NCBI GenBank assembly: GCA_964030475.1
Contig: CAXIPT010000004.1
Span: 6,175,738-6,239,737 of the forward strand
DNA: 64,000 bases
Direction of reading: 5' to 3'
Origin: Tethya wilhelma
Lineage: Eukaryota; Porifera; Demospongiae; Tethyida; Tethyidae
This document shows, in pieces, positions 18,166 through 47,075 of the stretch. Every line of letters begins with the position of its first letter. Within the stretch, counting starts at the first letter, position 1. Made by a program: the position numbers and the translations under genes. The notes below the pieces were generated by a model. That model was not told the origin of the DNA. It saw nothing but the letters and a program-made list of their open reading frames with translations, and ran no database searches.

Positions 18166-18169
18166 TCCA

Positions 18170-18725
18170 AGCATAAAAACAGATAGCTCTTCTGTTCCAT
18201 AGCGGCCATTGTCAGTAAAATCTCAGTACAGAGAAAAGTTTATAGAGAGAGAAAAACAGTCCTGGTATATATACTTATATTTATGGCTCTCAGGGTTCTG
18301 GTTAGTCTCACGGGCCAGATTATGGGTGGAGTAGGAGGGAAGGGAAAGAGGAGGGGAGAAAAGGAAAAAGAAGGTCTGGTACTTCACCCACAAAGAAGGT
18401 CTGGCCCGCAAGACTAGGTTCTGGTGCACATGACCATTGTGTTTTTTCCGTGTTGGGTGTACGTGTATAAGAGTTAGGTGGGCTGAATACATGTGAGTAC
18501 CACATGGATTCATGGAACGCTGCAAGCATCAAGCATGCTAGTGTAAAGTGGGATAAAAGTCAGATATCTGAATAAAAGTAAACTATAGTTTTACAATTTA
18601 AAATCATTATGTATGTAGTTAAAAGTCCAGATGACTTGAAACAAAAACATTAATTTGCAATACAAACGGTGAACCTATTAGAATGGAGACTGAGTTTATT
18701 GCGTGGAAGTTCTTTGCAATGCATC
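18170..18725. other. Spacer between receptor copies B and A
   Basis: No exon seen. A purine-rich stretch (about 18320-18385) and a repeated AAGAAGGTCTGG word (18369 and 18395) are present. GCCAGATTATGG and AGTCTCACGGGCC near 18305 have an inverse near 18400. Confidence 0.5.
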
Positions 18726-18728
18726 CAA

Positions 18729-21700: not shown

Positions 21701-22949
21701 CAGAAATTGTTGGATGGAAGTTGTTAAGGAAAAACGTGTGCCCGGTAAAATTGACAATACTAGCTAAGGAGAATACAGAACCAATGTTAGCGGAAATGGT
21801 TGTATTACCTCCAATAATCACGATACTCCTAAATATGTGCATCACACTTGAATTAGCTACGTTGTTGGTTAGTGTGAGAGAACTGCCCATCATGTAGTCA
21901 GAGTCAATGTACAATGCTGCTCCATCTCTTGCTCGGTTCTGAATAAACTGAGTATCAGAAATATTGATACCAAAATATTCGCTAAAAACATTTACAGCTC
22001 CTCCAGAAAAATTTGCAGTATTGCCAAAAAAGACACAGCCAGAAATGATAGTGGTCCCAGTTGCACTCAGGACTTCAAGTGCTCCTCCGTAACCTTCATC
22101 CCCATTTGCAGAGTTGTTGGTAAAATGGCTACCAATGATGTTAAGTGTCACATATGCACCATATATTCCTCCACCAAGCAAAGAATCAGCAACATTGTTT
22201 GTGAACGAGCACTGGTTGATCGAAATGTCACTCCTCAGGCTGAAAATAGCTCCACCTTGGTTTGCAGTGTTGTCATCAAATGTCGAAGTTGAAATACTTA
22301 CTGTACTGTCAACAATGACCATTGCACCTCCAGCAGATATTGGGATAGTACTAAATGGATCTTCGACCTCCCTCCCTTTGTTTGAACTAAACACACAGCC
22401 GCTCATAGTTACACTTGTAACAGATTTCAGACTCAATCCAGTAGTTTGTAACACTTCCTGAGTTGAGTTTTGACCAACGAAAGTACATCCATTGATCACG
22501 AATTGAGGAACTGAAGTAATGTTGCCACTACAACCGTTGAAACGAATGCCACTGACTGAAACTCTTGAAACAGCTTGAAAGGTAAAATTAGCCTGATCAC
22601 TACATGTGACTTGTGTTTCAGCAGAAGAGTCACTGACAGACATTGTGATCTGAACATTGGTGCGGTCATGATAGATGAAACTTGATGTGAGGTTGTGGTG
22701 CCCAGGAAGGAAAGTCAGTTCAATATTGGTGCTAGTGCCAAAATGACTCGAATCAGTAGCATACTGGGAAAGAGTGAAGCATGGCAACCTAATAATCAAT
22801 ATTTCTGAACCCATTGGGCATGGTGTAGTTGGAGAAGGAAGGACATAGAACTTGTCGGCTGAGATGAACGAACATTGTGTGCTAAATATCAGGCACACAG
22901 TTATTAGCAAACAGTTCTTCAAAGTTGACAGAGTCTTTACTTGAGACAT
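18729..22949 (-). CDS. Beta-helix/polytopic receptor-like protein, copy B (intact)
   Basis: Single exon. I prefer ATG 22949 (MSQVKTLSTLKNCLLITVCL, signal peptide) over 22976 because copy A aligns from there. The ectodomain holds about eleven Pmp-type turns, GGA(I/M/L) followed by FxxNxA (GGAIFSLRSD, GGGIYGAYVT, GGALYIDDNS), which form right-handed beta-helices in chlamydial Pmp and related proteins. Around residue 900 is a Cys-rich neck, LCGACDHSKNLSHVFGSSRC. Residues about 930-1290 hold 8-9 hydrophobic segments with family blocks FYANIVG, AWLNLDFGFETCFY, NPIATLATLILLSFTKL and RWIRDVRLNSFMDAYNAPFT. The polar tail ends with FSKFRGALELL and EVTYSVVDAIPSEN. The function is unknown; an adhesion or sensing receptor at the cell surface is my inference. 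Similar polytopic modules exist in other marine invertebrates and protists, but I cannot name the family. Confidence 0.85.
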   Translation of the reverse strand: MSQVKTLSTLKNCLLITVCLIFSTQCSFISADKFYVLPSPTTPCPMGSEILIIRLPCFTLSQYATDSSHFGTSTNIELTFLPGHHNLTSSFIYHDRTNVQITMSVSDSSAETQVTCSDQANFTFQAVSRVSVSGIRFNGCSGNITSVPQFVINGCTFVGQNSTQEVLQTTGLSLKSVTSVTMSGCVFSSNKGREVEDPFSTIPISAGGAMVIVDSTVSISTSTFDDNTANQGGAIFSLRSDISINQCSFTNNVADSLLGGGIYGAYVTLNIIGSHFTNNSANGDEGYGGALEVLSATGTTIISGCVFFGNTANFSGGAVNVFSEYFGINISDTQFIQNRARDGAALYIDSDYMMGSSLTLTNNVANSSVMHIFRSIVIIGGNTTISANIGSVFSLASIVNFTGHTFFLNNFHPTISVLQEGGALASFQSEIAFINKTVFMYNRAKFGGAIAAKESKMYMYGNVKVSQNNASQSGGGFYLYQSELDFNSTAEIFNNSAAKNGGGIYSISSMTNIIDGSVQIAENTAGKNGGAMYLELNAKLYVIKHRSECPEQSKCGNRVNNTWIRLEIADNTAYKYGGALYIDDNSNVNTCESIPFQAQSTAAECFFQVLALHSTTDQNLNVVNIYFFNNSAILDGDIIYGGLLDRCKLSSFAEIFHLTNYSALTPVNFDAVSYLLHVTNIQKNDLQRQVKSDPVRICFCTKNKNNIALPDCSFKPSTIHTSRGARKTISLVVVDQVNNTLPNRLVLSFLTDFRGLERDQTAQYTSENGMCSDLQYNIHSKNETDLLSLVPDGPCDEYGITLSIINITILPCPAGFDDSGTDCVCDNTLSNFITGCLADTGLVTRVGNVWISVINATAEEKQYITAGSCPFDYCRPSNEMVSFDLSAENGSDALCAFHRTGVLCGACDHSKNLSHVFGSSRCLPCSNNWLALSIAFALAGIALVGFILLFNLTVAVGSIDALIFYANIVGAHRAILLPFRSANFFSIFIAWLNLDFGFETCFYNGLDEYAKVWLQFVFPTYIILLVAMVIIISKYSNSFATLLSKRNPIATLATLILLSFTKLVRTVIAALSYANLSIRVNGTVEERKLAVWVVDGNVSYFETKHILLFIVAFIVLVIILAYMCLLFFWQWLLHCPNKKILRWIRDVRLNSFMDAYNAPFTRRHRYWTGLLLIARCILSLVSALILALGGLDGPRRPLFAIVLVVGSLFVLKEIVKHRIYKQRLLNVLEGIFLYNLLIFAAASIYSARNIEHQIALAYTSTSIAFLAFVIILIYHTYAFLLISITPVRKFIESFKVCNLKHASHPERTTSHTVSEKTIPLLSEDEAGATAEQSQDFSKFRGALELLSSHSFSEGLVESPQSDSYTPPSSISTASSASRQRRPTEVTYSVVDAIPSENDLEQSMTQM

Positions 22950-22989
22950 AGCTGTTGTGTAGCTAGTAAGATGCACGTACCAGGATTCT

Positions 22990-23570
22990 AATATAAGGAA
23001 AAATTATAAACTATTACTAACTAACATCAAAATTTGAAAACCGTGAAAATCAGAGTATAGGATATGTGATTTGTTTAACCTACCTTAACTAACTTGAGTT
23101 GTGAGTATAAGGCCTGGCTAGATGAGAGCTGCTCCTGTGTAGCTGTCAACAACACAATAATTATGTGTAGCCTGAATATCAGACATTCATATTCTTGTGG
23201 TATGGCATTGTATATAGTTATTGTGCAATGAATTTCCAAAAAGTTGCATCTAAATGGAATTTTAGGTGGGCCCATGGGCGAGGCTGCACTGATGTATGTG
23301 AATTGCATGTATGGTATTTATAATCATTGGTATAGCCAGATGAACCATGCAATGGGATGGATTTTTGTAACCATATTTGATGAAAATATTATTTAATTTT
23401 AGGTTAATGCATAGAAAAGAATATAATTACAGTAAGTAGAACACAAAACTTATTATGACAATACAATTAGCATGATACATGTAAGCTGGGATTCCTTAGT
23501 TAAAGATAGGACTCGTACTTTAAAGATTATTATAGGATTCCGTGATTTGTAAGTGGTAGCCACCTGCATG
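22990..23570. other. Upstream region of copy B
   Basis: 23040-23180 matches the upstream region of copy A (TACCTTAACTAAC and CTGTCAACAACACAATAATT), so a shared promoter or 5' untranslated segment probably lies here. The remainder is A+T-rich with nothing recognised. Confidence 0.55.
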
Positions 23571-23578
23571 TGTGCAAG

Positions 23579-26500
23579 CTACATTTGTGTCAAACTTTGT
23601 TCCATTGTATCATTTATATCATTTTCAGACGGTATAGGATCAACAACACTGTACGTTACTCTTGCTACTCTATGTGGGTTGCCATTTACAGTTGGATTTG
23701 AACCAGGAGGTGTATAGAGATCACTCTGGGGAGAACTTAAACTTTCAGAAAAGGATTGGGTATCGAGAAGTTCCAGTGGTCCTCTGAACTTACTGAAATC
23801 TTGTTGACGGCCGTATTCATCACAATCAGATTCTTCGGACAATAACGCTACAGTCCTGCTATCTGTTAGTGTTGCCGTATCTGTTTTATGCTTAGACTGC
23901 CTACGGCTTTTGTACGAGTTGAAAAATTTTTGCACAGGAATGGAGTCCTTCAATAGAAATGTGTACGTGTGATAAATAAGAATGAAAATGAAGAGAATGA
24001 AAGCAATGGCTGTTGATGCATAGGCTAGAGGAATTTGACTTTCGCTGTTCTCTCCCAAGTAAAGTGTAGCAGAAGCAAATACGAGAAGATTGCAGTGAAA
24101 AATACCTTCCAAGACATTCAGAAACTTTTTCTTGTAAATTCTTCGTTTTATGATTTCTTTAAGCACAAGTAAGCCTGCTACCACTAGTACGATGGCAAAG
24201 AGTGGCGTTTGAGGATCCCCAAAAATGAAAAGAGCTGAAATCAAGTAAAGAATACCTCTAGCAATGAGCAACAATCCAGTCCAGTAGCGATGTCGTCTAG
24301 TGAAAGGGGCATTGTAGGCATCCATGAATGAATTCAATCGGACATCTCGAATCCACCTTAAAATCTTCTTGTTTGGGCAACGAAGTAACCATTGCCAAGA
24401 GAAGAGCAACAACACATAGGCTAAAACAATCATGAAGACCACTAAAGCAGATAAGAAGAGTGGAATGTGTTTCCCTTCAAGATATGGCACATTTCCATCC
24501 ACCAACCAAACAACTTTTACTCCGTCAACTGTACCATTGACTTGTACATCTAATCTCACGAAAGATAACGCCGCAATAACTACTCGAACAAGTTTGGTGA
24601 AGGATAGTAGAATAAGAGTGGCCAAGGTAGCAATGGGATTTCTCTTGGAAAGAAGTGTAGCGAAGGAGTTGCTGTACTTGCTGATGATAATTACCATGGC
24701 AACGAGAAATATGATGTATGTCGGGTAGACAAATTGTAGCCAGACTTTAGCATACTCATCTAATCCATCAAAGAAGCAAGTTTCAAATCCAAAGTCAAGA
24801 TTGAGCCAAGCTATGAAAATGGAAAAAAAGTTTGCCCTTTTAAACGGTAGTAGATGTGCACGGTTTACTCCAACAATGTTTGCATAAAAGATAAGAGCAT
24901 CTATTGATCCAATAGCTACTGTCAAATTACAAAGTAGAATAAAACCAACCAGTGCTATACCAGCCAAAATGAATGGTATAAACAACGCTAGCGAGTCGTA
25001 TGAACATGGCAGACAACGTGAGCCTCCAAAAGCATGACTCAAGTTCTTTGAACGATCACAAGCTCCACACAGTTTCCCAGTACGATTGAGAGCACACAAC
25101 ACATCAGAACCATTCTCATCACCTAGGTTGATGTAAATCTTTTCATCGGATGGTCTACAATAGTCAAAGGGACAATTTGGATAGGAAATGTACTCTTTTT
25201 CTTCAGCTGTAGCATTGATTACTGATACCCACACATTACCAACACGTATTACTAAGCCAGTATCCACTGAACAGTTTGTGATCAAGTTTGGACTAAGGGT
25301 ATCATCACATGTACACTCTCTACCTGTGCTTACAAATCCTGCCGGACAAGGAAGAAATGATATGTTTACAAATCTTTCTGATATTCCATTGTCATTGCAA
25401 GGTCCAGTGGGAAATAAGGACAGTACATCATTATCTTTTCCTGACGAATAAACGTTGTACAATAAGTTAGAACAAGCACCAGAATCACTAGTTGTTTGAA
25501 ACGATTGGCCATCATTTAATTCAGCTACATCAGCCAAAATGGCTGCAATCAAGGAATTGGGGACTGTATTATTGACTTGATCGACAGCAACGAGTGATAT
25601 AGTAATGCTCCCTCCTTTTCTAGCGAGTATGTTAGAAGGCTGAAAGTCGCAGTCTGGTTGATTGCTATCGTTACAAAAGCAGATTCTTAGAGGGTCGGAG
25701 CCCACCTGTTGCTGGATATCTTTTCTTTGAATGTTTGTGACATTTAAAAGATACGACATAGCATTAATGTTGACAGGTGATAGGTCAGCATACTTTATCA
25801 AGCGAAAAATCTCAGCAAAGGAGCTCACTCGGCATCTGTCGAGCAAACCACCATAGATTGTATCTCCTCCTGAGCTAGCACTGTTATTGAAAAAGTAGAT
25901 GTTGACTAAGTTTAAGTTTGGTAGGGTGATAGAATGTAGATCTAAGGTCTGAAAGAAACATTCAGATGATGTGAACTGGGCTCTGTAAGGTATGGACTTA
26001 CAGGTACCGGATTCAGTATAATCATCAATGTACACAGCTCCTCCATATTCTGCTGTATTATGAGCTATCTCCAGCCTAATCCACGTATCATTATCCATGT
26101 TATTGCAGAGTATGTGATCAGTACATTCGGAGCGATATTTCACAATATACAATTTCGCACTCTGCTCAAAATACATGGCACCGCCACTTTCACCGGCACT
26201 ATTGTAGGCTATCCATACTGAGCCATCAATCACATTAATTGTTGAGCTTACAGAATGCAATCCTCCACCATTTAAGGCAGAATTGTTGAAGATTTCTGCA
26301 GTACCATTGAAAGTTATCTCACTACGGTACAAAAAGATACCACCACCATTCAGTGTAGCTGTATTGTTGGAGAGTTTAATTTCTCCGTACATGTAGATCT
26401 TTGTTTCTTTGGCCGAAATAGCGCCACCAATCTTTGCATTGTTGTTGCTGAAGAAAGTTGTGTCGACAAAGAATATTTCACTCTGAAAACACGTCACTGC

Positions 26501-27718
26501 ACCTCCCTCCTGTTGAGTCATTTGTGAAGCTTTTGGATGTAAGTTTTCAAGAAAGTAAGTGTATCCGGAAAACGTGACATTACTGGCAAAGGAAAAAACT
26601 GACCCAACATTGTTTGAAACTGTTGTGTTGCCTCCGATGGTGACTGCACTCTGTATAATGTGAATGACACTTGTAGTTGCTGTATTGTTGATAAACGTGA
26701 GAGAAGTGCTCAGCATATTGTCAATTTCAACATACAGCGCACTACCAATGTTTGCTTCATTTCCATAAAAATGACTGTCGGAAATATTGATGCCATTTGT
26801 ACGAAAAAAGTCTATTGCACCTCCGCCAAAACTTGCACTATTTCCAATAAAAACACAATCAGAAATGAAGACTGTCCCATTCAAAAGTAACTCCATAGCA
26901 CCTCCAAATGCTCTATCGCCAATTGCCGAGTTATTGGTAAAGTTGCTACCAGTTACTCTGAGTGTTGTGTAGCCATCATAAATGGCTCCACCAAGAAGAG
27001 CGGTATTATTTATGAAAATGCATTGTTCGATCAAAATCTCACTCCCTAAGCTAAAAATGGCTCCACCTTGCCTTGCAAAGTTGCTATCAAAGGTTGTATT
27101 TGATATTTGTACAAAACTGTCGTGAATCACTATAGCACCTCCAGCAGAAATGGCATCCATTGAGAAAGGATCATTGGCTTGACCATTAGCATTAGAAACA
27201 AACGTACTATCGATAATGGTTGCATCTGTAATTGTTCGAAGATCCAACCCACTTCCGTTTTGATTCAAACCATTAAACGCACACCTTTCAATTGTTAATT
27301 GAGTGACCAAAGAGAAGTTTCCGCCACAACCACTGAATTGTATGTCACTGATCGAAACATTTGAGACACCTTGGAAAACGAATTTTGCCTCCTCAGTACA
27401 TACAACATTGTAGTCAACATTATCCCCAAATTCTGAAGAGTTAATCTGAATATATTGCCCTCCAAACACAAAATTTGATGTGAGATTGTGACTTCCAGGT
27501 AGGAAGATCAGTTCGATATCAGTGCTAGAGCCAAAATGGTTTGGATCAGTAGAATACTCGGAAAGGGTGAAGCACTGACTAGGAAATATCAATAGATGCC
27601 TTGGACATGGTGTATTATTGTTTGGAGTGACATAGAAGCTATCAGCAGCTGAAATGCAACAACATTGTGTGCTCAGGATTAGACACACAGCCAGTAGTAG
27701 AAAGGTGCCTTTTGTCAT
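23579..27718 (-). CDS. Beta-helix/polytopic receptor-like protein, copy C (intact, 1379 aa)
   Basis: Single exon with ATG at 27718. Signal peptide MTKGTFLLLAVCLILSTQC. It has the same order of parts as copy B but is clearly diverged: eleven GGA(I/M/V)-type beta-helix turns (GGAIYDGYTT, GGAISAKETK, GGAVYIDDYT), neck LCGACDRSKNLSHAFGGSRC near residue 886, membrane region with AWLNLDFGFETCFFDGLDEY and NPIATLATLILLSFTKL, and a tail ending RVTYSVVDPIPSENDI. The membrane region is much better conserved between copies than the ectodomain, as expected for a receptor with a variable sensing part. The upstream region does not match A or B, so C split off earlier. Confidence 0.85.
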   Translation of the reverse strand: MTKGTFLLLAVCLILSTQCCCISAADSFYVTPNNNTPCPRHLLIFPSQCFTLSEYSTDPNHFGSSTDIELIFLPGSHNLTSNFVFGGQYIQINSSEFGDNVDYNVVCTEEAKFVFQGVSNVSISDIQFSGCGGNFSLVTQLTIERCAFNGLNQNGSGLDLRTITDATIIDSTFVSNANGQANDPFSMDAISAGGAIVIHDSFVQISNTTFDSNFARQGGAIFSLGSEILIEQCIFINNTALLGGAIYDGYTTLRVTGSNFTNNSAIGDRAFGGAMELLLNGTVFISDCVFIGNSASFGGGAIDFFRTNGINISDSHFYGNEANIGSALYVEIDNMLSTSLTFINNTATTSVIHIIQSAVTIGGNTTVSNNVGSVFSFASNVTFSGYTYFLENLHPKASQMTQQEGGAVTCFQSEIFFVDTTFFSNNNAKIGGAISAKETKIYMYGEIKLSNNTATLNGGGIFLYRSEITFNGTAEIFNNSALNGGGLHSVSSTINVIDGSVWIAYNSAGESGGAMYFEQSAKLYIVKYRSECTDHILCNNMDNDTWIRLEIAHNTAEYGGAVYIDDYTESGTCKSIPYRAQFTSSECFFQTLDLHSITLPNLNLVNIYFFNNSASSGGDTIYGGLLDRCRVSSFAEIFRLIKYADLSPVNINAMSYLLNVTNIQRKDIQQQVGSDPLRICFCNDSNQPDCDFQPSNILARKGGSITISLVAVDQVNNTVPNSLIAAILADVAELNDGQSFQTTSDSGACSNLLYNVYSSGKDNDVLSLFPTGPCNDNGISERFVNISFLPCPAGFVSTGRECTCDDTLSPNLITNCSVDTGLVIRVGNVWVSVINATAEEKEYISYPNCPFDYCRPSDEKIYINLGDENGSDVLCALNRTGKLCGACDRSKNLSHAFGGSRCLPCSYDSLALFIPFILAGIALVGFILLCNLTVAIGSIDALIFYANIVGVNRAHLLPFKRANFFSIFIAWLNLDFGFETCFFDGLDEYAKVWLQFVYPTYIIFLVAMVIIISKYSNSFATLLSKRNPIATLATLILLSFTKLVRVVIAALSFVRLDVQVNGTVDGVKVVWLVDGNVPYLEGKHIPLFLSALVVFMIVLAYVLLLFSWQWLLRCPNKKILRWIRDVRLNSFMDAYNAPFTRRHRYWTGLLLIARGILYLISALFIFGDPQTPLFAIVLVVAGLLVLKEIIKRRIYKKKFLNVLEGIFHCNLLVFASATLYLGENSESQIPLAYASTAIAFILFIFILIYHTYTFLLKDSIPVQKFFNSYKSRRQSKHKTDTATLTDSRTVALLSEESDCDEYGRQQDFSKFRGPLELLDTQSFSESLSSPQSDLYTPPGSNPTVNGNPHRVARVTYSVVDPIPSENDINDTMEQSLTQM

Positions 27719-27729
27719 GACTCAGAATA

Positions 27730-28413: not shown

Positions 28414-31400
28414 TTACATTTCAGAAACTGAGAGACTTTGCTCACTTTCAGACGGTATAGCATCAACCACACTGTAGGTTACCGGTCCACTTCGCTTCAT
28501 TGGTGGTGCATAGGTAGAATGACGATTTTGAACAGTCACTGACTGAGAGTTGATCAGTTCCAGAGGACCACGAAACTTACTATAATCAACATTCTCTTGC
28601 TTGTTACCCAATAATGATTCTGATCTTTCGCTATCGTCAGATGCACTGAAGTCTGAATCATTCGGTTCTTCTTGTTTGAGCTCAACAAACTTTTCTTGAA
28701 TGTGTGTGTTCTTTTCATCAAGGATTCGGTAAATTTGTGATAAGCTTTAAAGTTTGTGAGTATGAACGTGTGAGTGTGATAAGCAAGAATTAGTAGGAAT
28801 ATCAAGAAAGCAACGGTAGTCGATATAAACGCTAGCACTCTCTGTCTAGTTCGTTGATTGACCGCAGTCTCTCTTATGTAAAGAGTAACAGAACTGAGGA
28901 TGACCAAGTTGTATAGAAATATACCTTCCAAGATATTCAAAGGACGGTTTCTGTAGATTCGGCCTTTCACGAGCTCCTTCAACAGAAAAAGGCTCACAGT
29001 TACAATCACAATAGCAACTAGAGGTACTTTTGGGTCACCAAACACATTGAGTGCCGTTATGAGATAAAGACATCCTCTTATGATCAAAAGAAGACCCGTC
29101 CAGTAACGATGTCTTCGATTGAGAGGAGCATCATATGCATCCATGATCGTGTTCAATCGGACATCTCGAATCCATCGTAGAATCTTTCTGTTTGGGCAAC
29201 GAAGAGTCCACTGCCAAAAGAAGAGGAAAAAGGTGTAAGCTAGAGCGATGAAGAAGACTATCACAGCAGCGATAAAGAGAGGGATGTGCTTTCCTCTGAG
29301 ATAAGGCACGTTGGCGTCGATGAGCCAGACTAGTTCCGTACGAGTAGAGTTATTCATATGAATGGTCAGAGTTGCAAAATGCAATGCGGCAATAACTGTA
29401 CGAGTAAGTTTGGTGAAGGAGAGCAGAATCAGTGTAGCTAGTGTGGCGATTGGGTTCCTCTTTGATAGGAGGTTAGCGAAATTACGATTGTACTTGCTTA
29501 CAACAATGACTATAGCGACTAGAAGAATGATATAGACTGGGAAGACAAATTGTAGCCACATTTTGGCATATTCGTCTAATCCATCGTAAAAACAGGTTTC
29601 AAATCCAAAATCGAGGTTGAGCCATGCTATGAAAATGGAAAAGAAGTTTGTCTTATTGAATGGTAGAAAAGTTGCTCGATTTGCTCCGACAATGTTTGCG
29701 TAAAAAATAAGAGCACCAACCGATCCCACAGCCACAGTGAGGTTACAGAGTAGAATAAAACCAACGAGCGCTATGCCAGCTATTGCAAATACTATGAGTA
29801 GAGCAAGCCAGTTGTTAGAACAAGGCAAACACAGAGAGCCTCCAAAAGTATGACTCAGACCTTTCTTGCTATCACAAGCACCGCATAGTTTTCCGGTACG
29901 ATTGAAATCACACTGTTCGTCAGAACCATTCGTGAGGCTCAAGTTTACATAAACTTTATCTTCACCTGGTTTACAATAGTCGAATGGACAGTCTGTATAG
30001 GTCACATACATGTAGTCATCTTGGGAATCTGATTCATCAAACAAAGCCATCCAAACGTTATCAGTTCTGAGGACCAATCCATCATCTATCATACACTCGG
30101 ACACAAAACGGGGTTGGAGTATTGGATCACAGTTACACTCAGAACCAGAATTCCTGAATCCAGCCGGGCAAGTTAGAAAAGAAATATTGATTGATACTCT
30201 AGATATGCCCCTGTCATCACAAGGTCCGTTGGCATGTAAGAATAGAACTTCGGACTCTCGCGAGGAAAATATTGTGTAGTTTAGTTTGGAATTCAAACAT
30301 GACGTGCTTGTATTTTGAATCGACTGGCCTCTTCTCAAAGAGACTTGGTTGATGAGAGCTCCATGTATGCTGCTATTAGGGATGGTATTATTGACTTGGT
30401 CGACAGCAGCTAGTGACACTGTGAATCTCTCTCCTCTTCGAGTGTGGTAAGTTGATGGGTGGAAACTACAATCTGGTTCACCATTGTTACAAAAGCACAC
30501 ACGAACTGGACCAGATTTGAGTTGACTCTGGAGCTCACTTCTCTCAATATTGGTCGTGTTGAGAAAATAAGATATTGCATCGATTGAGACCATGGTCAGG
30601 TTGCTGTACTTTAAAATGTTGAACAGTTCGGCAAAATTACTCAGTGTGCATCTATCTAGTGTTCCACCATAAAGTGAATGTCCTGAAATTCTAGCATAGT
30701 TATTGATGAAGTAGGTGTTACGAATGTTTAGCTTGGAGTCTATGACAGAGTGAAGTGCTAAAGTCTGAAAGAAACACTCGGCAGCTGTGGATTGCTTTCT
30801 AAAAGGAAAAGAGTTACAGTTACCAGGGTTTGTATCATCAGCAACAAAGAGGGCGCCCCCATAATCAGCTGAATTTCCGGCCAACTCCAATCGAACCCAT
30901 GTTTCATTGTTTCGTTTCACACATAGGTCACCCGTGACACACTCTGCTTGGAATTTGGCTATGTAGAGCTTGGCGTTCTGTTCCAGATACATTGCACCAC
31001 CCCTCTCAGCTTGGTTCTCTGCAATGATGATATAGCCATCGATCACTCTTGTAGTGGCACTTACAGCATGTATAGCACCACCTTCTCCATTGGCTGAATT
31101 GTTAAATATTGCTATACTCCCATTGAGAAAGTTTAGTTCACTCTGGTAGAGAAATATAGCTCCAGCTGATGAATAGGCTGTATTATGTGCAATAGTGACA
31201 TTTCCATCCATGTACAGTTTTGTTTCCTTAGCAGATATGGCACCGCCTATGTTGGCACTGTTGAAAATGAAAAAGCTATCACCAAAAAAGTAGACAAAGC
31301 TCTGAAAACAAGTCACTGCTCCACCTTCTTCTAAAAGCTGAGAGGAACTCGGATGTGTATTCTTTACGAAAGTTGTACTTCCAGAAAAAGTGACATTACT

Positions 31401-32549
31401 GACGAAAGCAAGCACAGACCCAACGTTGTTGGTTATAAATGTGTATCCATTGATGTCCACATTGCTGTTTAGAGTCTCGAGAACACTACTGGCAGCTAGA
31501 TTGCTGTGAATGTGTAGTGAGGTGCAATTTACATTGGCTGATTCAACATAGAGAGTACTTGCAGATGAAGCTACATTCCCAATAAACTCACACTCAAAAA
31601 TAACCAAGGTATTTGTTGAGTTGAAAAAATCGATCGCACCACCAAACACTGCAGAGTTATTTATAAACCTACAGTTCATTATGATGCCTGACCCATTGGC
31701 AGGAATTTCCATTGCTCCTCCATAAGCTTTGCCCAAAATAGCAGAATTACTATCAAATGTAGTGTTCTGGACATTTAGTATGCTGTATCCTGTATAGGTT
31801 GCACCACCATAACCAATAAAACTACTTGCTGAGTTGTTGGTGAACATGGAGTTGAGAATATTAATACTGGTGAAAGCAGTGTAGACAGCACCACCCAATT
31901 GAGCCGTATTCTTATCAAAATGGCATTCTGAGATGAAAATAGCACTGTAGTTGGCAATCAACGCTCCACCACCCTTATAAATTCGATTTCCAAAGATATG
32001 AAGCACATTATTCCCAGTATTGGAAGTGAAGTCTGTCCTTGTAAAGGTAGCAACTGTGACTGAAACTATTTGGAATCCTGTCCCTTCTCGATTTAGCCCA
32101 TCTAGAGTACAATCTTCAACGGCGAACTGTTCAACTGAAGCAATATTATTTCCCACACAACCAACAAATTGTACACCACTGATTCGAACCTCTGAGCTGA
32201 TATTTTCAAAGTTCATTTTCACCGATTGACTACATGTAATGACTGTTTCAGTTGTAAAGTCAGAATTCAAAGGCACCATTGTGAAGCTTGTGATGCCTCT
32301 AAGACTTAGGTCTGCTGTGAGGTTGTGGTATCCAGGAAGTAAGATTAGCGTGATGTTGGTGCTCGAGCCAAAACTGTTAGTGGCATACCACGAGAGAAGT
32401 TGACACTGTGAGCTGTTCACAACTGTATTTGTAGCACATGGTTCAGTCGATGTGGGTGTGGCATAAAAAGTTTCAGCAGCAGATACCAAAACTATTGTGC
32501 TTATTATCACATACCCTATTTCTAGCACAGTATTGTAACTTCTTGCCAT
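28414..32549 (-). CDS. Beta-helix/polytopic receptor-like protein, copy D, frameshift in the tail
   Basis: ATG at 32549 (MARSYNTVLEIGYVIISTIV, signal peptide), with about eleven beta-helix turns (GGAVYTAFTS, GGATYTGYSI, GGAISAKETK), neck LCGACDSKKGLSHTFGGSLC, the polytopic region to about 28750, then the tail. The long frame leaves the family pattern after about 28740 and ends at 28554 with unrelated residues. Another frame picks up the conserved tail from about 28730 to the stop at 28414 (DYSKFRGPLELI, then PVTYSVVDAIPSESEQ). An indel between about 28700 and 28740, or a sequence error, separates them; I see no good splice pair. If the indel is real, the product keeps all membrane segments but loses the tyrosine motif. 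D is the most diverged copy. Confidence 0.75.
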
Positions 32550-32559
32550 GTTATCGCTT

Positions 32560-33270
32560 AAGTTTGAGTATGATTATATCTGAGGAGTTACATAGTAAAT
32601 TATAACAAAGGATATTTTTATCTCTGTACAGCATTTATAAAAACCATAGCATTGTCTCACTGAATTATACAAATCATGTGCATTATTTGATATACGCTTT
32701 ATACTGTCGCACGTAGCTGAAAACTGAACATTGTAGACGTACATGTCATGTCAGGTAATACCAACAATATAGCTATCAAGTAATTACAACCCAAGCACGT
32801 ACTGGCCCAGTCCATGGGTGAACTGATTTGAATCTTAGAAAGCCCATGTAGACTATATATCATGCTCATGACTTGGCACTCTATCACAAACACTTACACA
32901 TCATGAAATATTAGTTGCATAGATCCTATCTGTCTAAAATTGACTTACTTCTTGCAAGCAGTGCTTCCAACCTCTTCTGTTTATATCCTTCCACGTACTA
33001 ACAGTGTTTTAGCTTGTGAGCTCTGTTTGGGGTGAGTCAACTCATGACTCAGTCAATCCTCCAATTGATGAACATGAATACAATTATTTACGCGCCATAA
33101 AATTTCAATCAACTTAGTGACGTCATTAATTTAATCAGCAATGAATAACATTAAATTCCACTACAGTCTCATCGGTACCAAACTGCTTCATCTAAAGGTT
33201 TGCTCTAAAAAGATCATCATGACAACATACATATCGATCATGACTACATTTGTTTCTTCTCAATCACTGC
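32560..33270. other. Spacer between receptor copy D and the Death/ankyrin gene
   Basis: No exon seen. The 5' flank of copy D and the 3' flank of the Death/ankyrin gene share this region. Confidence 0.5.
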
Positions 33271-37200: not shown

Positions 37201-38776
37201 ATGTCTAGGCTTACAAATGTTTAGTAAAGGATAGCTAAGGCTTTAAACCTTGCCAAGAAGCTTTCTCAGAGACTTTTCCCAATGTATGCACTTAGAAAAC
37301 CAAATGAAACTCCCCAGAAACACTCTAAGAAAGCGCTTAGCGCGAAGCCACACAAATGCATTTTTGTTCATTCTTACTTCCTCCCTAACTGACTTACTTG
37401 AACACGATTTCCAAAGAAACAAAGAGCGTTGAGCCAACTTTGACTGTATATAGTAACTTGAATTCATCCGAACTACGAACCTTTACACTTATTTTCTGTC
37501 TAAATATCAAGAAACAAGAGCTAGGCAGCTTTTAAAACTTTGATATAAATTACTGTACTGAAATGTAGCCATCTTCGTGTTGGTAAAGGTCGTCACATTT
37601 AAATAGCCAACTTGACCACGTGGTTTGCATAATTATGTCTAATGCGCATGCGCATCCAATATAAAGCAGGCACTTCTACTTTTTGTAGACTGATCAGTCT
37701 CTTGCAAAATTCACCTTAGTGTTGAAAAAAGTGTATGAACAAGTAGTAAAAATTTTATAAAAATAACAGTGTAGGAATGGGCAGTGCTGTAAAAAGCAAG
37801 GAAACAAGCCAAGACTCTGAATTTCGGCACATGACTACTTCATTTTTTGTGTCAAAGCCTTACAATCTCAAATGTAGGTTGCCTGCATGCATGACTGCAT
37901 ATACTTCATTTAATTTACAATAGGTAGACAAAGGCCCCTGTATACTATGATATGATGAAGACTAAAAATGAAGTAGTCATGTGCCGAAATTCAGAGTCTT
38001 GGCTTGTTTCCTTGCTTTTTACAGCACTGCCCATTCCTACACTGTTATTTTTATAAAATTTTTACTACTTGTAATAATAATTATTAATGTTTACCTGAAG
38101 AGCTGCTGTTTTTAAGGACCTCACAAACTTTTTCAGCATAAGACGTTTTCCCAACTTTCAAAAACACTTTCATTAAGTTGTAATATGTTGCATCAGGACC
38201 ACAAGCTTCTTGCCATTTGCTCAAAGCAGCCCTCCTAACAAGAAGGATAAACATGAAAGTCTTATTATTGCTTAGATGGAACCTACTGAGCTAGTTCAAT
38301 AATTTCTAGCCATACATAGGTTGCTAGTACAATACAAATTTGATATGAATTTACTATCAGCTGGTCATTGTCTAGTAATCATTTTCATGGATCATGGAGC
38401 TGTAAAATAGTGAGGCAGTTTTGTAGTCTGGCGGGTAGTCTAGACTCTAGTCATGCATGACTGATCCATCACATGAGTTTCTAGATAGTAGAACTTACGT
38501 TTGCAATTTCAAGTCTTGAGGATACTTAACTTTAATAGCTGCTATGTCAGCTTTGGTCAGCTCCAACCTCTCTGCTAGACTGCCTTCCCATTCATCAATA
38601 GAGTCGGCTATATCACCAAGATGAGTCTGGACACCTTTATGCTCAAAATCTAACGTTCTTTTGAGGTTTTCTTGCTTCTCTTTCGGTATAGTTGCACGAT
38701 AATGTTCTAACAACAACTTCCATCGTTTACTACTGTGTGATTGTTCAGTAGTGTCCATTGAATCGACTTGAGACAT
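33280..38776 (-). CDS. Death-domain plus ankyrin-repeat protein, about 16 exons
   Basis: Exons on the minus strand, high to low: 38499-38776 and 38095-38234 (a Death domain split over two exons; LGDIADSIDEWEGSLAERL, then ALSKWQEACG and VCEVLKN), 36939-37064 (Ser-rich linker), 35960-36714 (helical domain of about 250 aa, WTFFDYHLIEYIISKFGS), then ankyrin exons 35799-35890 (acceptor uncertain: the obvious one breaks phase, TTGAG at about 35880 keeps it), 35582-35683, 35362-35466, 35059-35157, 34845-34943, 34674-34772, 34476-34577, 34028-34126, 33861-33962, 33663-33764, then 33494-33580 and 33280-33363 (stop TGA). Each ankyrin exon is 99-105 bases in phase 0, so one exon is one repeat. Death domains recruit partners in apoptosis and NF-kB-type signalling; ankyrin repeats bind proteins. 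Cytosolic adaptor is the likely role. Introns hold a GT microsatellite, a small MITE and an R1 element. Confidence 0.8.
34138..34300. repeat. (GT)n microsatellite with one undetermined base
   Basis: Over 150 bases of GT repeats with an N at 34214, in an ankyrin-gene intron. The N probably marks a collapsed or unresolved length. Confidence 0.95.
34329..34412. mobile_element. Small palindromic MITE, CCCAGGCTCTC family
   Basis: Inverted arms CCCAGGCTCTCCCCTTTGACC and GGTCAAAGGAGAGAGCCTGGG, followed by TACGAGGCTAG. Related units lie at 52340-52417, 58005-58080, 58183-58268, 62532-63166 and 63783-63855. Confidence 0.75.
37141..38053 (-). mobile_element. Mobile element R1, copy 2
   Basis: Minus-strand copy inside an intron of the Death/ankyrin gene. 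The tail end TACGTACGGTAGTACGTATA is at 37144, the AAGAAGCTTTCTC block follows, and the hairpin (GTAGGAATGGGCAGTGCTGT to its inverse) is at about 37769-38045. Confidence 0.8.
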
Positions 38777-38779
38777 GAC

Positions 38780-39420
38780 AGCTACAACTTGGATCCCTAG
38801 GCATTCACGTCAATAGTAGAAAACACGCCCACAAATTTGAATCAGTACCTGTTGGCACTAATTAGCCCCACCCACTAAGTTAAGTTGTCAGTAATAATTG
38901 TTGCACAATAATAGTTCAATGTAAAATTAAGAGTATAATATCTTCCATCAGTCTACTGAAGAGTAATTAAAGCTCTCTGTCATTCCCACTACATGGTGGT
39001 GAAGTAAGCAGTGCATGGTTGAGCCTCTGTGCGGACAGACGGGAAAGAGTATGGAGTGGATTTGTATACTCTAGTACTGCATGAATTAGATTTTAATAGG
39101 ACAACATAATAATTATTTTAATTGTCACTGTGTTCCTTTGTGTACACACCAACATGCCACAACATACCCAGCAGGCGTGAAACCAACATGTATCATCCCA
39201 TTAACCACTTAACTGTATCCACAGACCATTATGATAACAACACACAATTAAAGGCCCACAGTACATCATACCTACTATAGGCTAGCTAAAAGACATGTTT
39301 ACGTCTATAATGTCATGGATCATATATCAATCTAACATTGCATTTTATCAGGTAGCGGCTAAGACTTGTATAGCAAAAAGACCATACTTTCCGAGGTAAG
39401 ATGCTGATAGGTTATAGTTT
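38780..39420. other. Spacer upstream of the Death/ankyrin gene
   Basis: No exon recognised. It should contain the promoter of the gene at 33280-38776. Confidence 0.4.
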
Positions 39421-40423: not shown

Positions 40424-43400
40424 TTAATTCTCGGCTTGCCGGGCAAACTGTAGTCCGCAATTGTTTAGGAAGTATTCACGTGGACGAAGATGATTAGGAT
40501 TGTCCATTCGTATCATATCTTTCAGCACAGTGTTTCTCAAATAGTTAAAATCACGAAAGTTTCTATTCAAAAGTTCAGATTTTGGTAAATGAGCCAATAA
40601 TTCTTGCTTCTTTTGATCAAATTGTAAGATCAATGCAATTAGACCGGCAATGGCAGGGGCAGCACATGAGGTACCATTGAAATATTTCACTCCACTATCT
40701 GTTCCTATTAGAGGGGCCGGTATCTGTTCGCCTGGGGCATATACGTCAATTGAATTTGAATCAGTGGTGTTCAAACCAGCTACTCTAGCATCAGTATCCA
40801 GAGCACCGACTGATATGACGTTCCCATTACTAGCTGGGAACAAACTCCCAGACTGATTGCCGCCGTCATTCCCTGCAGCAGCGACACAGATCACTCCCTG
40901 TTTGTTTAGGTCAAGGAGGATATGTCTCAGTTCCGCATCTTTTGAAGAATCGTATTTCATTCCAAAGGACATGGAGATAATGTCTACAAAGAGCTTGCCT
41001 TCCTTCGGATTCCCTTTCTCTTCGTTTAAAGCGTACACTTTTTTGAGAGCACATAAAAGAGAATCTGTGTGGTATTCGTTGCCCACATCGTAAATAGACA
41101 GTGTGGCTCCTGGAGCAACCCCACATGGAATATTAATATTCACTGGTATTTCTAGACGAGAAGTTGGGTCATATTGAATTGTAGCATTGAACCCTCTCCC
41201 AGCAGCTACAAAGGCAGCCATTGTACCGTGTGGATCTGTTGACTTGTGCCACTGTGTACCTACAAAGGATTCACCAAGAATTAAATTTTGATCCTTTGAG
41301 CTTTTCTCTTTGAAAGCGGCATGTTTAAGATTGATACCACTGTCGATAATAGCAATGGTGATGCCACTGCCATCAAGTATGGGATGAATATCCTTTAGCT
41401 CCCATCCAGTCACAGCCGAGAAATCTTTCCCTTTTTTTATATTTGTACATGGTTGAAAATTTCTCAGACATTTAGCTGGATTTTCGACACAAACCTGTAG
41501 GTAATTCAATGAAATAAAATAGTAATAATTTACTAAATGCACAACATCATACAAAGCTAGATGTATTATATACCTCTGAAGAGACTGAATGTGGTAGAAG
41601 GCTACTTGGACTTTGAGTAGAATCACTGAGATCAGCACCTGCAAAAACAAATTTAGACGCATCATGTGAAATTGAATGGCATGGTTGATTGCAGAAATCT
41701 CACACACACACGCACACACGCACACACGCACACACACACACACATGCACACACACACACGCACATACATGCACACACATAGCTCATCCACGAAAGCTCAG
41801 TTTAGAATTAATGTTTGACGAGAGACATCCGTGAAAGTTTGATTCTGTTAATTTCCCACTATGACACAATATTATGATAATCACTTCCAAGAAAAAACTT
41901 GATAAGCAAATAGCATGACTACTTCATTTTCATGAGTCAATTGCAAGTTTGATCAAATTCTATCATTCAATGATAATTGTCAGCCATTTGGCTCATGAGT
42001 CAATGCAAGCAATCACTTGATTAATTTAGATAATTTTTAAAAGTAACAAGCATGTTATGTACACAGTAGCGTATGAGAGTTAAGTACAAAAAATGAAGTA
42101 GTCATGTGCCGAAATTCAGAGACTTGCCTTGTTTCATTGCATTTTACCGCACTGCCCATTCCTACACTTCTCATTTTTATAAAATTTTTATTATACTTGT
42201 TCGCATTCACTTTTTTAAACACTAAGGTGCTCAATTGCATGGAAAGAATCATACAGTAGAGACTAGTCAGTCTCTACAAAAGCAGAAGTGTACATTTGAT
42301 ACGCATGCGCATTATATGCATGCAACCACGTGGTGTATTGACAACCTTTACCTATGTCAATAGGCTAAATAAAAAGTACAGTATTTTATATAGAGAGTTT
42401 CAAAGCTGCCTAGATTTAGTTTGCTGCCTTTTCGCCACCAAACGAGTCGAAAAGGACGTACTGTGCATCAAATGAAGTCCCACTATATGGTCAAAGTTGG
42501 CTCAATGCCTTTTGTTTGTCTGGAAATCACGTTCAAGTAAGTTAGTTAGGAAGGAAGGAAGGAAGGAAGGAAGGAGAACAAAATTGCACTCTTGTGGCTT
42601 CTCGCCAGCGCTCTCTCCAGAGTGCTCCAGAAACTTTCTGCCTGTTTTCTTGGTTAATACAGTAAGCAAACTGTCTGGGGGAGGCTATTAAATGCATTTG
42701 AAGGCTTAGCTTTCTTTCCCTGAAAGTTTACAAGCATGAACATTTTGTATTGTGTCAATGGGACAGTCGACCCATTCCTAATATACGTACTACCATACGT
42801 ATGATATATATATATGCAGTTTTATTAAACATTCATGTTGTGTTTGTCCTATTCAATTTTGCAAGCATTGATTATTATAATATGCATAAATTATTTGGCC
42901 CTAAAGAGTTAACAAAAGCTTAATAACGATGCTTACCAGTGTTTTCTTGGGCATTCCAAAAGGCATTGAATTGCTCTAGATCTCCACACTCTGTACTAGG
43001 TGTGTCATCAGAAAATGTACAATGTAGCCACTGCTTTCCTGTTTTACTCTTCTTAATAACAGCAGGATGTGGTTCATCCTCTCCACACTGACATAGCAAG
43101 CTCTCTTCAGGTGGGAAGTAAGTGTAGTGGAGATGTTTGGTAGCTTGAGCCACCACGCCTAGTATGGCTTCCTTTACAAGAGGACAAAGTTCGTGATATA
43201 GATCTGCTTGCATGGGTACAGTTATGATCTCAATGAAGTCGAAGTGATCGATAAGGTTAACAGTTCCTAGGGAATTTGGTATGGAAAATTGGACAATGTT
43301 TGCATAAAGGCACTTTGGCTTAGGATCTCGGCGACTCTTTCGTGTTAGCTTCCATGGCACTGGAATCAAAACTTTAGATGACAGAAGCATTGCAATTGTT

Positions 43401-45108
43401 AAACAGAAAACACCATTGAAGAGACCTTTGGGAAAATGAAGAACGAGAGAAGGGATGGTAGACTTGTAACTAGCAATGAGTGTTTTAACAAGTTTTGATT
43501 CAGCTGGATGTAAAAGACAAGGCATGAAGTATTCAATCTCTTCTTCACCCTCTTTACGATAGTCAGCGATGATATGCAACTTATAGAAAAGGGCAAGCAA
43601 TTTATCTTCTGTAAATATTTCTTCTATGTAGTGAGCACGAAATTTTTTAAGAATACCTTTAGTGACACGACCAAAATTGTAAAAGTGCTTCCAGTCTATG
43701 GTAGTTGATAATTCATCCGATACTCTTTTGCCCTCTTTAAGGTTGAACCAGTGCTCAACTAACTCAGTTAACTTGTCAATTAAGACTTGAATGTGGCAAA
43801 AGATCAAGTCACTAACCTCAGGAATGTCAGGGTAAAATAAGATGATATTAAGCTCATCTAGGTATTTCAGAGCGGCAACCAAGGCTTCTTCACTAATTAA
43901 ATGAATGCTTTTAGCAACTTGTCGGCACTCTTCCATGGTTATAACTTGTTTCTTGCTTGTCTCAGTGATCTCCTGTAATTTCAGTTGCAGCAAAAACCAT
44001 CGAAGAGGAATTGGAGGATTTTCAGAATCTTTTACATTCGGATCTTTAGCTATCTCCTGCTCTTTATCTGGCTCTTCAGGTGGAAAGAAGTCATTGATAC
44101 TTTTCCGCAAACTTGCTGCTAGCTGTATTTGTTTAGCTTCACGTTTAGTTGTATCTACACCAAAGAGTACACGATCACCACAGTGTATAAATTTCAATTT
44201 TTTTTCATCCGATTCAGTGTATGGTGCAAGTAGCTCTGACATTCGTTGTTCCTTATCCTCTCGAGATTCTCCACTCTTCTCTTCCTTATCCTCGTGTGTT
44301 GCGATGAACAGCATGGTTGGGGGATTACCTTCACCTTCACGATACCTCAATGACTGGGCTGATTGTAAAGCACATTGCACATGCTCTTCATTAGTGAGTA
44401 CAGATTGAATTTTTGAAACTAATTTACCATCTTGGTTATAGTATTCAATGCATGGCTTTTGAGAGAGAGATTCAGACAGCTTCTGCACAAGGACATACAA
44501 AGACGTTTGTCGCAAAAACAGTGGCAGAACTACCTGAAATTGAGGTTGGCCTCCACAGTCGGTTACAGATATCCACTTACGATTCAAGTGAGTACCACCA
44601 GTCTCAGATCGATCCATTAGCTCAACTAATTCTTTCTCGATGGGAGACGCTTCCTGTAAGGGGGAATCTTGACTTGAACTGGCGTTGACAATCTTATCTT
44701 TTGCTAGTGATGTCTTATTTAGCTGATCAAATTCTTTTTCCACAGAAGAAGCTTCCCGTTGACTTGAGCTTGCCTTGATATTCTCACCTTCTGATACAGA
44801 CGTCTCTGTAGCTGTTGTATCTAAAGATGTTGATTTCTTAGGCTTAAAATTTTTCGCCATTTCAGCTAGAAATTTTTTTAAGTCAAGCTTATCCCACAAA
44901 GCTGTATCAAGATGGGACTCAATTGGAATAACACACACTGGTCGACAAGAACAAGGTGTGCTTCGACGAATAGTTTGTGGCTCATTATCAAGGAGTAGAT
45001 CCAATGTTGAGGTTTTACCAGAACCAGCTACTCCAGTGAGCAACATCTTCAATATTCGTAACGTGACAGACCCCTCCTTCATCGCTTCATCAAAGAGCCG
45101 AGCATTAT
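40424..45108 (-). CDS. Roc-COR-type P-loop GTPase fused to a subtilisin-like serine protease (partial 5')
   Basis: Exons 42937-45108, 41574-41638 and 40424-41494 join in phase (phase 1, then phase 0). Exon 1 encodes a GTPase: Walker A GVAGSGKTST just after its start, a D-C-G-G-Q switch near 44550, a T-H-E-D base-recognition motif near 44295, then a winged-helix COR-like region and a Cys-containing C-terminal part. Exon 2 is a 21-residue linker. Exon 3 is a peptidase S8 domain with the full triad: Asp in AIIDSG (codon near 41344), His in HGTMAA (41229), Ser in GTSCAAPA (40668), plus the oxyanion Asn in AAAGND. No signal peptide or pro-domain is visible, so the protease is probably cytosolic (inference). 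The first exon begins in phase 1 after TTTTTAG, so earlier exons exist; the exon at 51221-51556 is a phase-compatible candidate. The 1.3 kb intron carries an R1 element. Confidence 0.75.
41700..41780. repeat. Imperfect (CACACG)n microsatellite
   Basis: CA-rich run with CG and TG variants, within the intron between the GTPase exon and the linker exon. Confidence 0.85.
41917..42810 (+). mobile_element. Mobile element R1, copy 3 (left hairpin arm eroded)
   Basis: The right arm GAAGTAGTCATGTGCCGAAA to CTGCCCATTCCTACAC is at 42092-42170. The left arm is reduced to a stub near 41917 (CATGACTACTTCATTTTCAT). The tail carries a GGAA microsatellite (42551-42574) where copy 1 has ACGT repeats, and ends near 42810 in TACGTACTACCATACGTATG. 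Confidence 0.75.
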
Positions 45109-46480: not shown

Positions 46481-47075
46481 TCAATATGAAGTACTTAATG
46501 CTTGCTTTTCTTCATTATGAATTTGCATGGCTAAGTGAAAGTCCTGGTGCTCTTGAATATCCCAAACAGCAACATGTTCACCACAATCAGAACAAATCTG
46601 AAACAACACATGATCTTCCTTTAAAGAATCATCAAAATTTAACCTCCTTCTCTTCATTGCTGGACCAGGCTCTGGGTCAGAGTTTTTACTGCTAAAGTAA
46701 TCTACTATAGATGGACTTTTGCTAATAGGTTTGCAAGAGGACTGCTCACTAATTGCAACTGCCACTGTCTCTTCTTTGCTGCAGCCCATATCAGAGGAGC
46801 AGTCTAACAGTGAACCCTCAAGTGGCTTAGTAAAGTAGGAAGCAATGCCACTTTTCTGTTCAAACCAGAGCCAGATACTTGTAATGGTTCAGAGGTCATT
46901 GAATGTGGACTACTATCTAAACTACCATTCTTAGTATCAATTGACCTTCCAGGAACCTCTGATGGAATGTGGGTGTTAACTTTAAAGTACGATGGAATGG
47001 TTTTAACTTCTGAAGTATAGTCACTATTAGGATGTTTATCATCTTGATAGACTAAACTATACGCTGACAGCTCAA
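46481..47075 (-). pseudogene. DNA polymerase eta-like C-terminal region (PIP boxes and UBZ), one frameshift
   Basis: The C-terminal frame has a UBZ zinc-finger pattern of Y-family polymerase eta: CSDCGEHVAVWDIQEHQDFH, in which the two Cys and two His ligands fit C2H2, near residues 65-90 of the 46481-46789 frame. Two PCNA-binding-like motifs precede it (SGIASYFTKP and SPSIVDYFSS), and a third (KTIPSYFKV) lies upstream at about 46990 in another frame, the break being near 46850. No catalytic domain is present in the window. It may be a retained C-terminal exon with a sequence error or, more likely, a gene remnant in what could be a long intron of neighbouring genes. Confidence 0.55.

Follow-up and report, generated by a model that had tools for sequence, protein, structure and literature searches.

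Fungi possess NLR-like proteins that include a Peptidase S8 domain as well as ankyrin-, WD40- or TPR-protease sensors that adjoin gasdermins, and the gasdermin HET-Q1 is reported as the likely substrate of one fungal S8 protease, HET-Q2 (PMC4986451, PMC12881547). The gene analyzed here is located in a 64,000-nucleotide stretch of the genome of the sponge Tethya wilhelma (the window, meaning the whole stretch). It resembles the fungal systems, which are proposed cell-death effectors, in coupling a protease with a nucleotide-binding switch or with repeat domains, and the parallel with S8-carrying fungal receptors drawn in a preliminary description of this locus is indeed in print in those papers. 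However, the fungal switch is of the NLR type with an N-terminal protease, whereas in the sponge the switch is Roc-COR and S8 is either C-terminal or placed between ankyrin and Roc. Furthermore, the fungal protease adjoins a gasdermin, whereas an exon-by-exon search, which could miss a divergent protein, revealed no gasdermin (PF04598) candidate in the whole sponge genome, which leaves a gasdermin partner for the S8 gene without a candidate.

Roc-COR switches with other outputs are also described. DAPK1-type ROCO proteins combine Roc-COR with a Death output (PMC6337361), as do the Death-bearing sisters of the window gene, whereas the window gene itself has S8 and no kinase was seen in its exons read at 40424-45108. 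The ROCO proteins of group 3 in brown algae and other SAR, for which exon shuffling in candidate immune receptors is discussed, likewise carry a peptidase at the C-terminus of a ROCO switch, but that peptidase is IPR009003 rather than S8, and the lineage also differs (PMC11378527). In another sponge, Amphimedon, expansions of Death/TRADD-N receptors with caspase, PNPase or HD effectors similarly combine Death-like and effector domains, yet the section on these expansions names neither S8 nor Roc-COR, and the main text contains neither "subtilisin" nor "subtilase" (PMC8195603). The words "peptidase", "protease" and "subtilisin" have 0 occurrences in PMC12909245, which deals with sponge NLRs, and among the papers listed by a literature search, with most subscription papers beyond its reach, none reported an animal Roc-COR-S8 protein.

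Exon layout and domains of the window gene

All features of the gene are on the minus strand, and three exons open in a single frame lead from a Roc-COR GTPase through an adaptor to a peptidase S8:

42937..45108 (-), GTPase exon, putative divergent Roc-COR; 723 complete codons, in phase 1, out phase 1, frame checked
45011..45034 (-), P-loop GVAGSGKT; G25, A27, G28, G30 and K31 invariant in 26 sequences
44546..44560 (-), DCGGQ motif, G3-like; D183, G185, G186 and Q187 invariant in 26 sequences
44288..44299 (-), THED motif, G4-like THxD; T270 and D273 invariant in 26 sequences
43685..44008 (-), COR-A match; residues 367-474 of the GTPase exon translation
41639..42936 (-), intron 1; GTAAGC...GCAG
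41574..41638 (-), adaptor exon, 65 bases; phase 1 to phase 0
41495..41573 (-), intron 2; GTATAT...CTACAG
40424..41494 (-), peptidase S8 (subtilase) exon, stop codon included; phase-0 acceptor
41342..41344 (-), catalytic Asp51; in 54/54 aligned sequences
41228..41230 (-), catalytic His89; in 52/54 aligned sequences
40868..40870 (-), oxyanion Asn209; in 54/54 aligned sequences
40667..40669 (-), catalytic Ser276; in 54/54 aligned sequences

The GTPase exon ends with AACACTG before a phase-1 GTAAGC donor, the 65-base exon is bordered by TTTGCAG and GTATAT, and the acceptor ahead of the S8 exon is CTACAG. The donor and its phase, the fit of the 65-base linker exon and the limits of both introns had all been given in the preliminary description and were found as claimed. 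S8 occupies the place where a DAPK-type ROCO-Death protein has Death after Roc-COR. No Death-type match was found in intron 1, and among window frames of at least 40 amino acids, a size below which exons would escape, no Death-type match was better than E 0.03 and none fell inside the gene. The phage collection gave no match.

In the GTPase exon, Pfam placed Roc (2e-4, 22 bits) before COR-A (6.2e-6, 26.6 bits), both below their cut-offs of 27 and 35.3 bits, respectively, while AAA_16 and AAA_22 were weaker matches over the P-loop. COR-A and Roc were the top matches, and neither NACHT nor NB-ARC was matched in the window gene at E up to 0.1. At 1e-3, Roc and COR-A were each matched by 3 of the 26 GTPase family members. 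An hhalign comparison of the family profile with family A3 gave a probability of 100 (E 3.8e-66, 691 columns), and the A3 members P0146 and P0160 pass for COR-A (45.0 and 45.4 bits) and reach 25.3 and 26.1 of 27 bits for Roc, so the exon is homologous to proteins that pass COR-A. The invariant positions of the family alignment (A2) include the GTPase motifs P-loop, DxGGQ and THxD. The exon thus appears to be a divergent Roc-COR, with predicted GTP binding and nucleotide-dependent dimerization. The GTPase profile matched none of the solved structures. The genome contains at least 72 matches to this exon, fragments included, from 62 of 193 candidates scored, with L026, L028 and L031 outside the set; the dN/dS of the window GTPase against the paralog L040 was 0.30.

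The S8 exon matched Peptidase_S8 (PF00082) at 4.7e-31, with 108.6 bits against a curated cut-off of 21.8, and a subtilisin fold was predicted confidently. The alignment of 54 sequences comprised the window copy, 24 of 30 S8 loci (gapped, truncated or distant ones were left out) and 29 homologs from a list of 120. All four residues (Asp, His, Asn and Ser) are kept in the window copy, which agrees with the intact S8 domain announced earlier, whereas the paralogs L014 and L034 have Gln instead of the catalytic His, so that some members of the family may be inactive. The dN/dS of the window S8 was 0.36 against L012 and 0.40 against L010; for the window against L011 it was 0.72, and for L031 against L032 1.03. 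The fold, the catalytic residues and these mostly low ratios point to a probable working protease. Among solved structures, the bacterial intracellular subtilisins 7xr8 and 2xrm, which, unlike the window S8, are stand-alone enzymes, were closest in sequence, with matches spanning about 130 residues. No I9-type pro-domain was matched by Pfam in the S8 exon at E up to 0.1. Neither the adaptor nor the S8 exon has a Met ahead of the catalytic Asp, and since the first in-frame Met of the S8 exon is residue 92, past the catalytic Asp and His, a signal peptide cannot start inside that exon. IPR009003, the signature of the algal peptidase, is trypsin-like.

Recurrence of the layout and apparent exchange of Death and S8

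The preliminary description had overlooked that S8 forms a whole family in this genome, whose members are coupled to modules of the Roc-COR, ankyrin and Death kinds. The three-exon layout recurs in the paralogous loci L028, L031 and L032, giving four phase-matched loci in all, with the same donor phase, an adaptor of 65-68 bases (65 in L031 and L032, 68 in L028) and a phase-0 acceptor; the adaptors of L031 and L032 were read by eye and confirmed by pattern, automated exon ranking having favored others or none, and the DNA read at these two loci showed no P-loop half of the GTPase. In addition, L026 encodes ankyrin repeats, S8 and Roc-COR, in this order, in one unbroken frame of 1187 codons. 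Given the shared phases and adaptor and the single frame of L026, the layout goes beyond chance. Of 21 non-ankyrin loci, 19 allowed a phase-0 acceptor preceding S8 to be scored (it is at another spot in L022 and L023, and the L016 row read its neighbor L014), and 16 of the 21 have no in-frame Met between this acceptor and the catalytic Asp. L011 and L010, the S8 copies closest to that of the window, arose by duplication of the segment made up of adaptor and S8, the L011 adaptor being identical to that of the window in 64 of 65 bases, and no GTPase was seen near either in the DNA read, which at L011 extended 2.5 kb further. The next-nearest copy, L012, has no profile-supported partner domain; its 5' frame looked COR-like by eye, matched no profile and was not counted.

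An S8 cassette stands at the site of the Death-type exon in sister Roc-COR genes, a point that the preliminary description had also passed over. The nearest GTPase paralogs have a Death-type exon at the position of the window's S8, facing the same donor, and in the tree the window GTPase groups with Death-bearing L040 and L041 (99/99), while L032 groups with Death-bearing L067 (97/96). In the COR region, L032 and L067 share 94% identity across 341 columns, and their DNA homology reaches the splice donor and ends there. Similarly, L026 aligns with P0121 and P0122 at about 51% in the ankyrin part and 74-75% in Roc-COR, and its S8 sits where these two have Death. Two Halichondria panicea gene models also run from Roc-COR into a region that is Death-type by the sponge Death profile, with no Pfam Death match for P0228, the model scanned. 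From the Death exon of the sisters, the break at the donor and the replacement in L026, Death and S8 look like interchangeable output modules swapped at least three times.

With respect to simple adjacency, 2 of 60 Roc-COR rows (hand-kept from 72) are followed on their own strand, at no more than 6 kb, by one of 29 S8 rows (taken from 38), where 0.04 such cases would be expected. A Death row lies within that distance and orientation for 21 of the 60, a count that is not a rate, the 40 Death rows having been picked from 150 partly for nearness to Roc-COR genes.

Competing explanations and proposed mechanism

We consider it probable, though with real reserve, that the locus encodes one product consisting of a Roc-COR switch, a short linker and a C-terminal subtilase of the intracellular type, placed at the Death site and gated as proposed below. 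That Roc-COR and S8 form one fused protein, as had been suggested before, is well supported by comparison, given the conserved exon phases, the adaptor exon, the intronless fusion in L026 and the Death/S8 exchange at one site. Alternatively, two genes could adjoin here, a Roc-COR gene ending in intron 1 and an S8 gene with its own first exon within 41639-42936, and the adaptor-S8 segments of L011 and L010, with no GTPase seen nearby, would fit such an arrangement. It is made improbable by the absence of a Met before the catalytic Asp, the identical phases in three paralogs, the single frame of L026, the Death-type exon met by the same donor in the sisters and the two H. panicea models joining Roc-COR to a Death-type region, albeit with no Pfam Death in P0228. 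We give even less credence to a decaying locus, in which an S8 segment transposed into a GTPase intron would be unused: although the duplicated S8 segments have ends in intron 1, this intron contains simple repeats and dN/dS against L011 is 0.72, the frames are open throughout, the splice sites are conserved, and dN/dS is 0.30-0.40 for GTPase and S8 against L040, L041, L010 and L012.

Most known animal subtilases are secretory, and a secreted or lysosomal digestive enzyme might lie beside a GTPase gene by chance; yet with the I9 pro-domain missing from the Pfam list, bacterial intracellular subtilisins as the closest solved sequences and no start codon in the S8 exon from which a signal peptide could precede the domain, we find this scarcely credible. 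A true fusion in which S8 serves as a self-processing or scaffolding part and not as an executioner is conceivable though unlikely. It would accord with the possibly inactive, Gln-bearing L014 and L034 and with the existence of bacterial receptor-acting pseudoproteases of the S8 fold (CspC, a weak match here), but the window copy is intact at all four residues and the His is present in 52 of 54 sequences.

If the locus does encode the single gated protein, the Roc-COR module would keep the protease inactive or apart until a signal, sensed by the N-terminus or by partner proteins, shifted its nucleotide or dimer state, whereupon the subtilase would cut cytosolic targets. Such a receptor would have its own executioner, while the Death-bearing sisters would recruit one via Death-Death contacts. 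We infer both the nucleotide gating of the protease and its cytosolic location, and immunity or cell death would be the likeliest output, since the relatives, which form large expansions, are receptors of the Death, ankyrin and Roc-COR types. More speculatively, and with greater doubt than belief, we propose that sponges have a receptor system that does not depend on caspases, that uses Death and subtilase as swappable plugs on Roc-COR, ankyrin and other chassis, Death recruiting executioners and S8 acting as a nucleotide-gated one, and that arose independently of the fungal S8 receptors.

Other species and wider implications

Among 50 homologs of L026 from other species, 0 list both S8 and COR-A (the 7999 candidates sharing the most words with it were scored, and a divergent one could escape), and the search with S8 alone could return only proteins of up to about 620 residues; within this scope, no fused Roc-COR-S8 protein was found in another species. 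The earlier interpretation as a whole is upheld in part: the fused protein is well supported by comparison and the fungal parallel stands, while proteins matching both Roc/COR and S8 elsewhere, which it had proposed to look for, did not appear in these searches. Two co-locations in other genomes, of an S8 match with a Roc-COR match (P0003/P0151, both on 330,492-base contigs, and P0017/P0137, 626,541), were discounted because large contigs and many Roc-COR genes could yield them by chance.

If the proposed reading is true, animals would have a protease-bearing receptor as in fungi, with a Roc-COR switch of the LRRK2/DAPK type taking the place of the NLR one, and such a receptor would bear its own cutting enzyme rather than recruit one. 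L032 and L067, with near-identical switches and different output modules (protease versus Death), constitute a natural experiment and would allow direct tests of Roc-COR control over an enzyme and of whether cell killing or the cleavage of foreign proteins proceeds without caspases in early-branching animals.

Among the remaining sequences, an LRR-like frame at L015 had no Pfam match, and P0007, P0087 and P0101 have N-terminal extensions ahead of S8 with no significant Death match. Finally, L024 matches the COR end only and has a Roc-COR and Death pair directly upstream, and it may thus be a rearranged copy.

A divergent Roc-COR GTPase probably joined in frame to a peptidase S8 exon

The genome searched comprised 124.6 Mb, and the window (G000:C4:6175738-6239737) was found to hold a putative fusion gene with the following exons:

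42937-45108, (-): GTPase exon of the P-loop type, 2172 bases, with the 3' end ...AACACTG/GTAAGC in phase 1
41574-41638, (-): adaptor exon, 65 bases, entered in phase 1 and left in phase 0
40424-41494, (-): peptidase S8 exon, phase 0 after CTACAG, with a complete S8 domain and a stop codon

This exon reading bears out the preliminary description, which had proposed a phase-1 GTAAGC donor, a fitting 65-base exon and an S8 exon in frame. The S8 exon gave a clear peptidase S8 match (Pfam, 4.7e-31), and its first Met is residue 92, beyond Asp51 and His89, so that the exon alone would be unable to start an active protease. In the GTPase, Roc is followed by COR-A, as expected, both scoring under the Pfam cut-offs, while hhalign aligned its family with a COR-A-positive family over 691 columns (probability 100, E 3.8e-66). 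Since some members of the matched family pass COR-A, the window GTPase appears to be a divergent Roc-COR protein. Seven of its 104 listed relatives are named, all from sponges (Halichondria panicea, Ephydatia muelleri).

A protease joined to a receptor switch is already known from fungi. One paper lists NLR-like proteins with Peptidase S8 (PMC4986451); another describes NLRs with S8, protease-repeat sensors adjoining gasdermins, and the S8 protease HET-Q2, whose likely target is a gasdermin (PMC12881547). Brown-algal ROCO proteins may carry a C-terminal peptidase, but a different one from the S8 of the window (PMC11378527). The effectors listed for sponge Death/TRADD-N receptors in section 10 of PMC8195603 are caspase, PNPase and HD, S8 being absent from that list. 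Among the papers listed by the literature searches, none reported the Roc-COR-S8 combination in an animal.

S8 loci across the genome

The S8 exon query returned 38 matches, 30 of which were read as loci (L009-L038), mostly with 1.5 kb of flank per side. Within these flanks, a receptor-type module adjoined S8 or stood in frame with it at 14 of the 30 loci: Roc-COR at six (L009, the window copy; L026, L028, L031, L032 and, doubtfully, L024), in-frame ankyrin repeats at seven (L019 and L026 by Pfam; L021, L025, L027, L033 and L036 by reading), and Death at two (L029 and L034), L026 being counted in both of the former groups. No firm partner module was seen in the flanks (mostly 1.5 kb per side) of the other 16. 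In L014 and L034 the catalytic His is replaced by Gln, a change that may have left both as inactive decoys or regulators.

Three comparisons, together with the late first Met of the window S8 exon, would favour one protein over two. The layout of a phase-1 donor, a 65-68-base adaptor and a phase-0 acceptor is repeated in L028, L031 and L032, whose S8 domains share 37-38% identity with that of the window; the Roc-COR pieces read at L031 and L032 are without the P-loop half of the GTPase. A phase-0 acceptor 5' of S8 was scorable in 19 of the 21 non-ankyrin loci examined (the acceptors of L022 and L023 lie off the usual spot, and the row for L016 is a neighbour locus), and no Met lies between the acceptor and the catalytic Asp in 16 of the 21. 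In L026 a single frame of 1187 codons spans ankyrin, S8, P-loop and COR. The Roc and COR-A scores of L026 fall under the cut-off as well, but its relative P0121, from outside this genome, passes COR-A with 46.6 bits.

The window adaptor-S8 segment has duplicates at two loci, L011 (95% across the S8 segment) and L010 (88%), whose left ends map to points within the first intron of the window gene. The 5' DNA read at L011 showed no GTPase; for L010, 1.5 kb was read. These duplicates suggest how the adaptor-S8 cassette might move.

Death and S8 domains at the same site

The closest paralogs of the window GTPase, L040 (69%) and L041 (67%), have a phase-1 donor followed by an exon with a Death-type domain. 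These exons gave no Pfam match; the assignment is supported by a four-row alignment that, compared by profile with Death exons, scored 95.6% (E 1.2e-8). In a further paralog, L067, Pfam identifies the exon as Death (2.9e-9). In two Halichondria panicea models, Roc-COR leads into a Death-type region by the sponge Death profile (E 2.5e-5 and 1.4e-6, calculated on a small set); for one of them, P0228, Pfam listed no Death.

In the COR-region tree, the window copy groups with L040 and L041 (99/99), L032 with L067 (97/96), and L026 with the outside homologs P0121, P0122 and P0124 (99/76; 100/99 on adding P0127), while L028 forms a long branch of unsure placement. P0121 has the architecture ANK-Death-Roc-COR. 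L026 matches P0121 and P0122 at about 51% over ankyrin and 74-75% over Roc-COR; between these regions lie 326 residues of S8 in L026 and 96 residues holding Death in P0121/P0122. The DNA shared by L032 and L067 stops at the Roc-COR splice donor, with nothing common past it, and in the S8 tree the window copy is separate from the group of L028, L031 and L032. From the trees, the L026 alignment and the L032-L067 breakpoint, we read Death and S8 as having been exchanged independently at least three times, in one direction or the other.

Relatives of the Roc-COR module are described as alternating between monomeric and dimeric states with nucleotide (PMC6337361), and here the module would probably control the fused protease. 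Death-bearing sister receptors would recruit partners; the window protein would carry its own enzyme. The top structural rows for the S8 model include unprocessed pro-subtilisins that span the model starting at its residue 1, which would be compatible with shielding of the active site by the segment ahead of the S8 domain.

Neighbouring frames and other receptor genes

The window also contains:

2751-4970, (-): frame with stonustoxin (SNTX) helical and thioredoxin-like domain matches, also matching MACPF_SNTX (4.3e-9), a pore-former fold
11255-12628, (+): second frame with SNTX helical and thioredoxin-like matches
14811-16124, 16097-17467, 18732-23003 and 23582-27721, (-): four frames (438-1424 codons each; region 14811-27721) matching Chlam_PMP repeats
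17905-18162, (+): small Roc-COR fragment (GTPase family profile, E 7e-20)
28554-32573, (-): further long frame
38498-38809, (-): frame 3' of the S8 stop codon, matching Death-type domains marginally (E 0.05-0.09)
46484-46888, (-): zf_UBZ match (2.8e-10), a zinc finger that binds ubiquitin

The zf_UBZ frame is likely the end of a same-strand neighbouring gene; if so, about 1.4 kb remains for the 5' exon(s) of the GTPase gene.

The genome holds large receptor-type expansions of Roc-COR (at least 65 matches to a second query, some at places found by the first), NACHT (at least 102) and Death (at least 150, scored among 591 candidates). The S8 locus L015 has one of the NACHT matches about 10 kb upstream, on its own strand. 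A frame 3' of the ANK-S8-Roc-COR gene (L069:3-728, (-)) shows a weak, under-cut-off PNP_UDP_1 match (nucleoside phosphorylase, E 0.0034); fungal NLRs, too, are listed with this domain. Directly 5' of the Roc-COR exon of L040 (oriented 266-1126), a protein-kinase-like frame was recognized by eye, apparently without the usual catalytic motifs.
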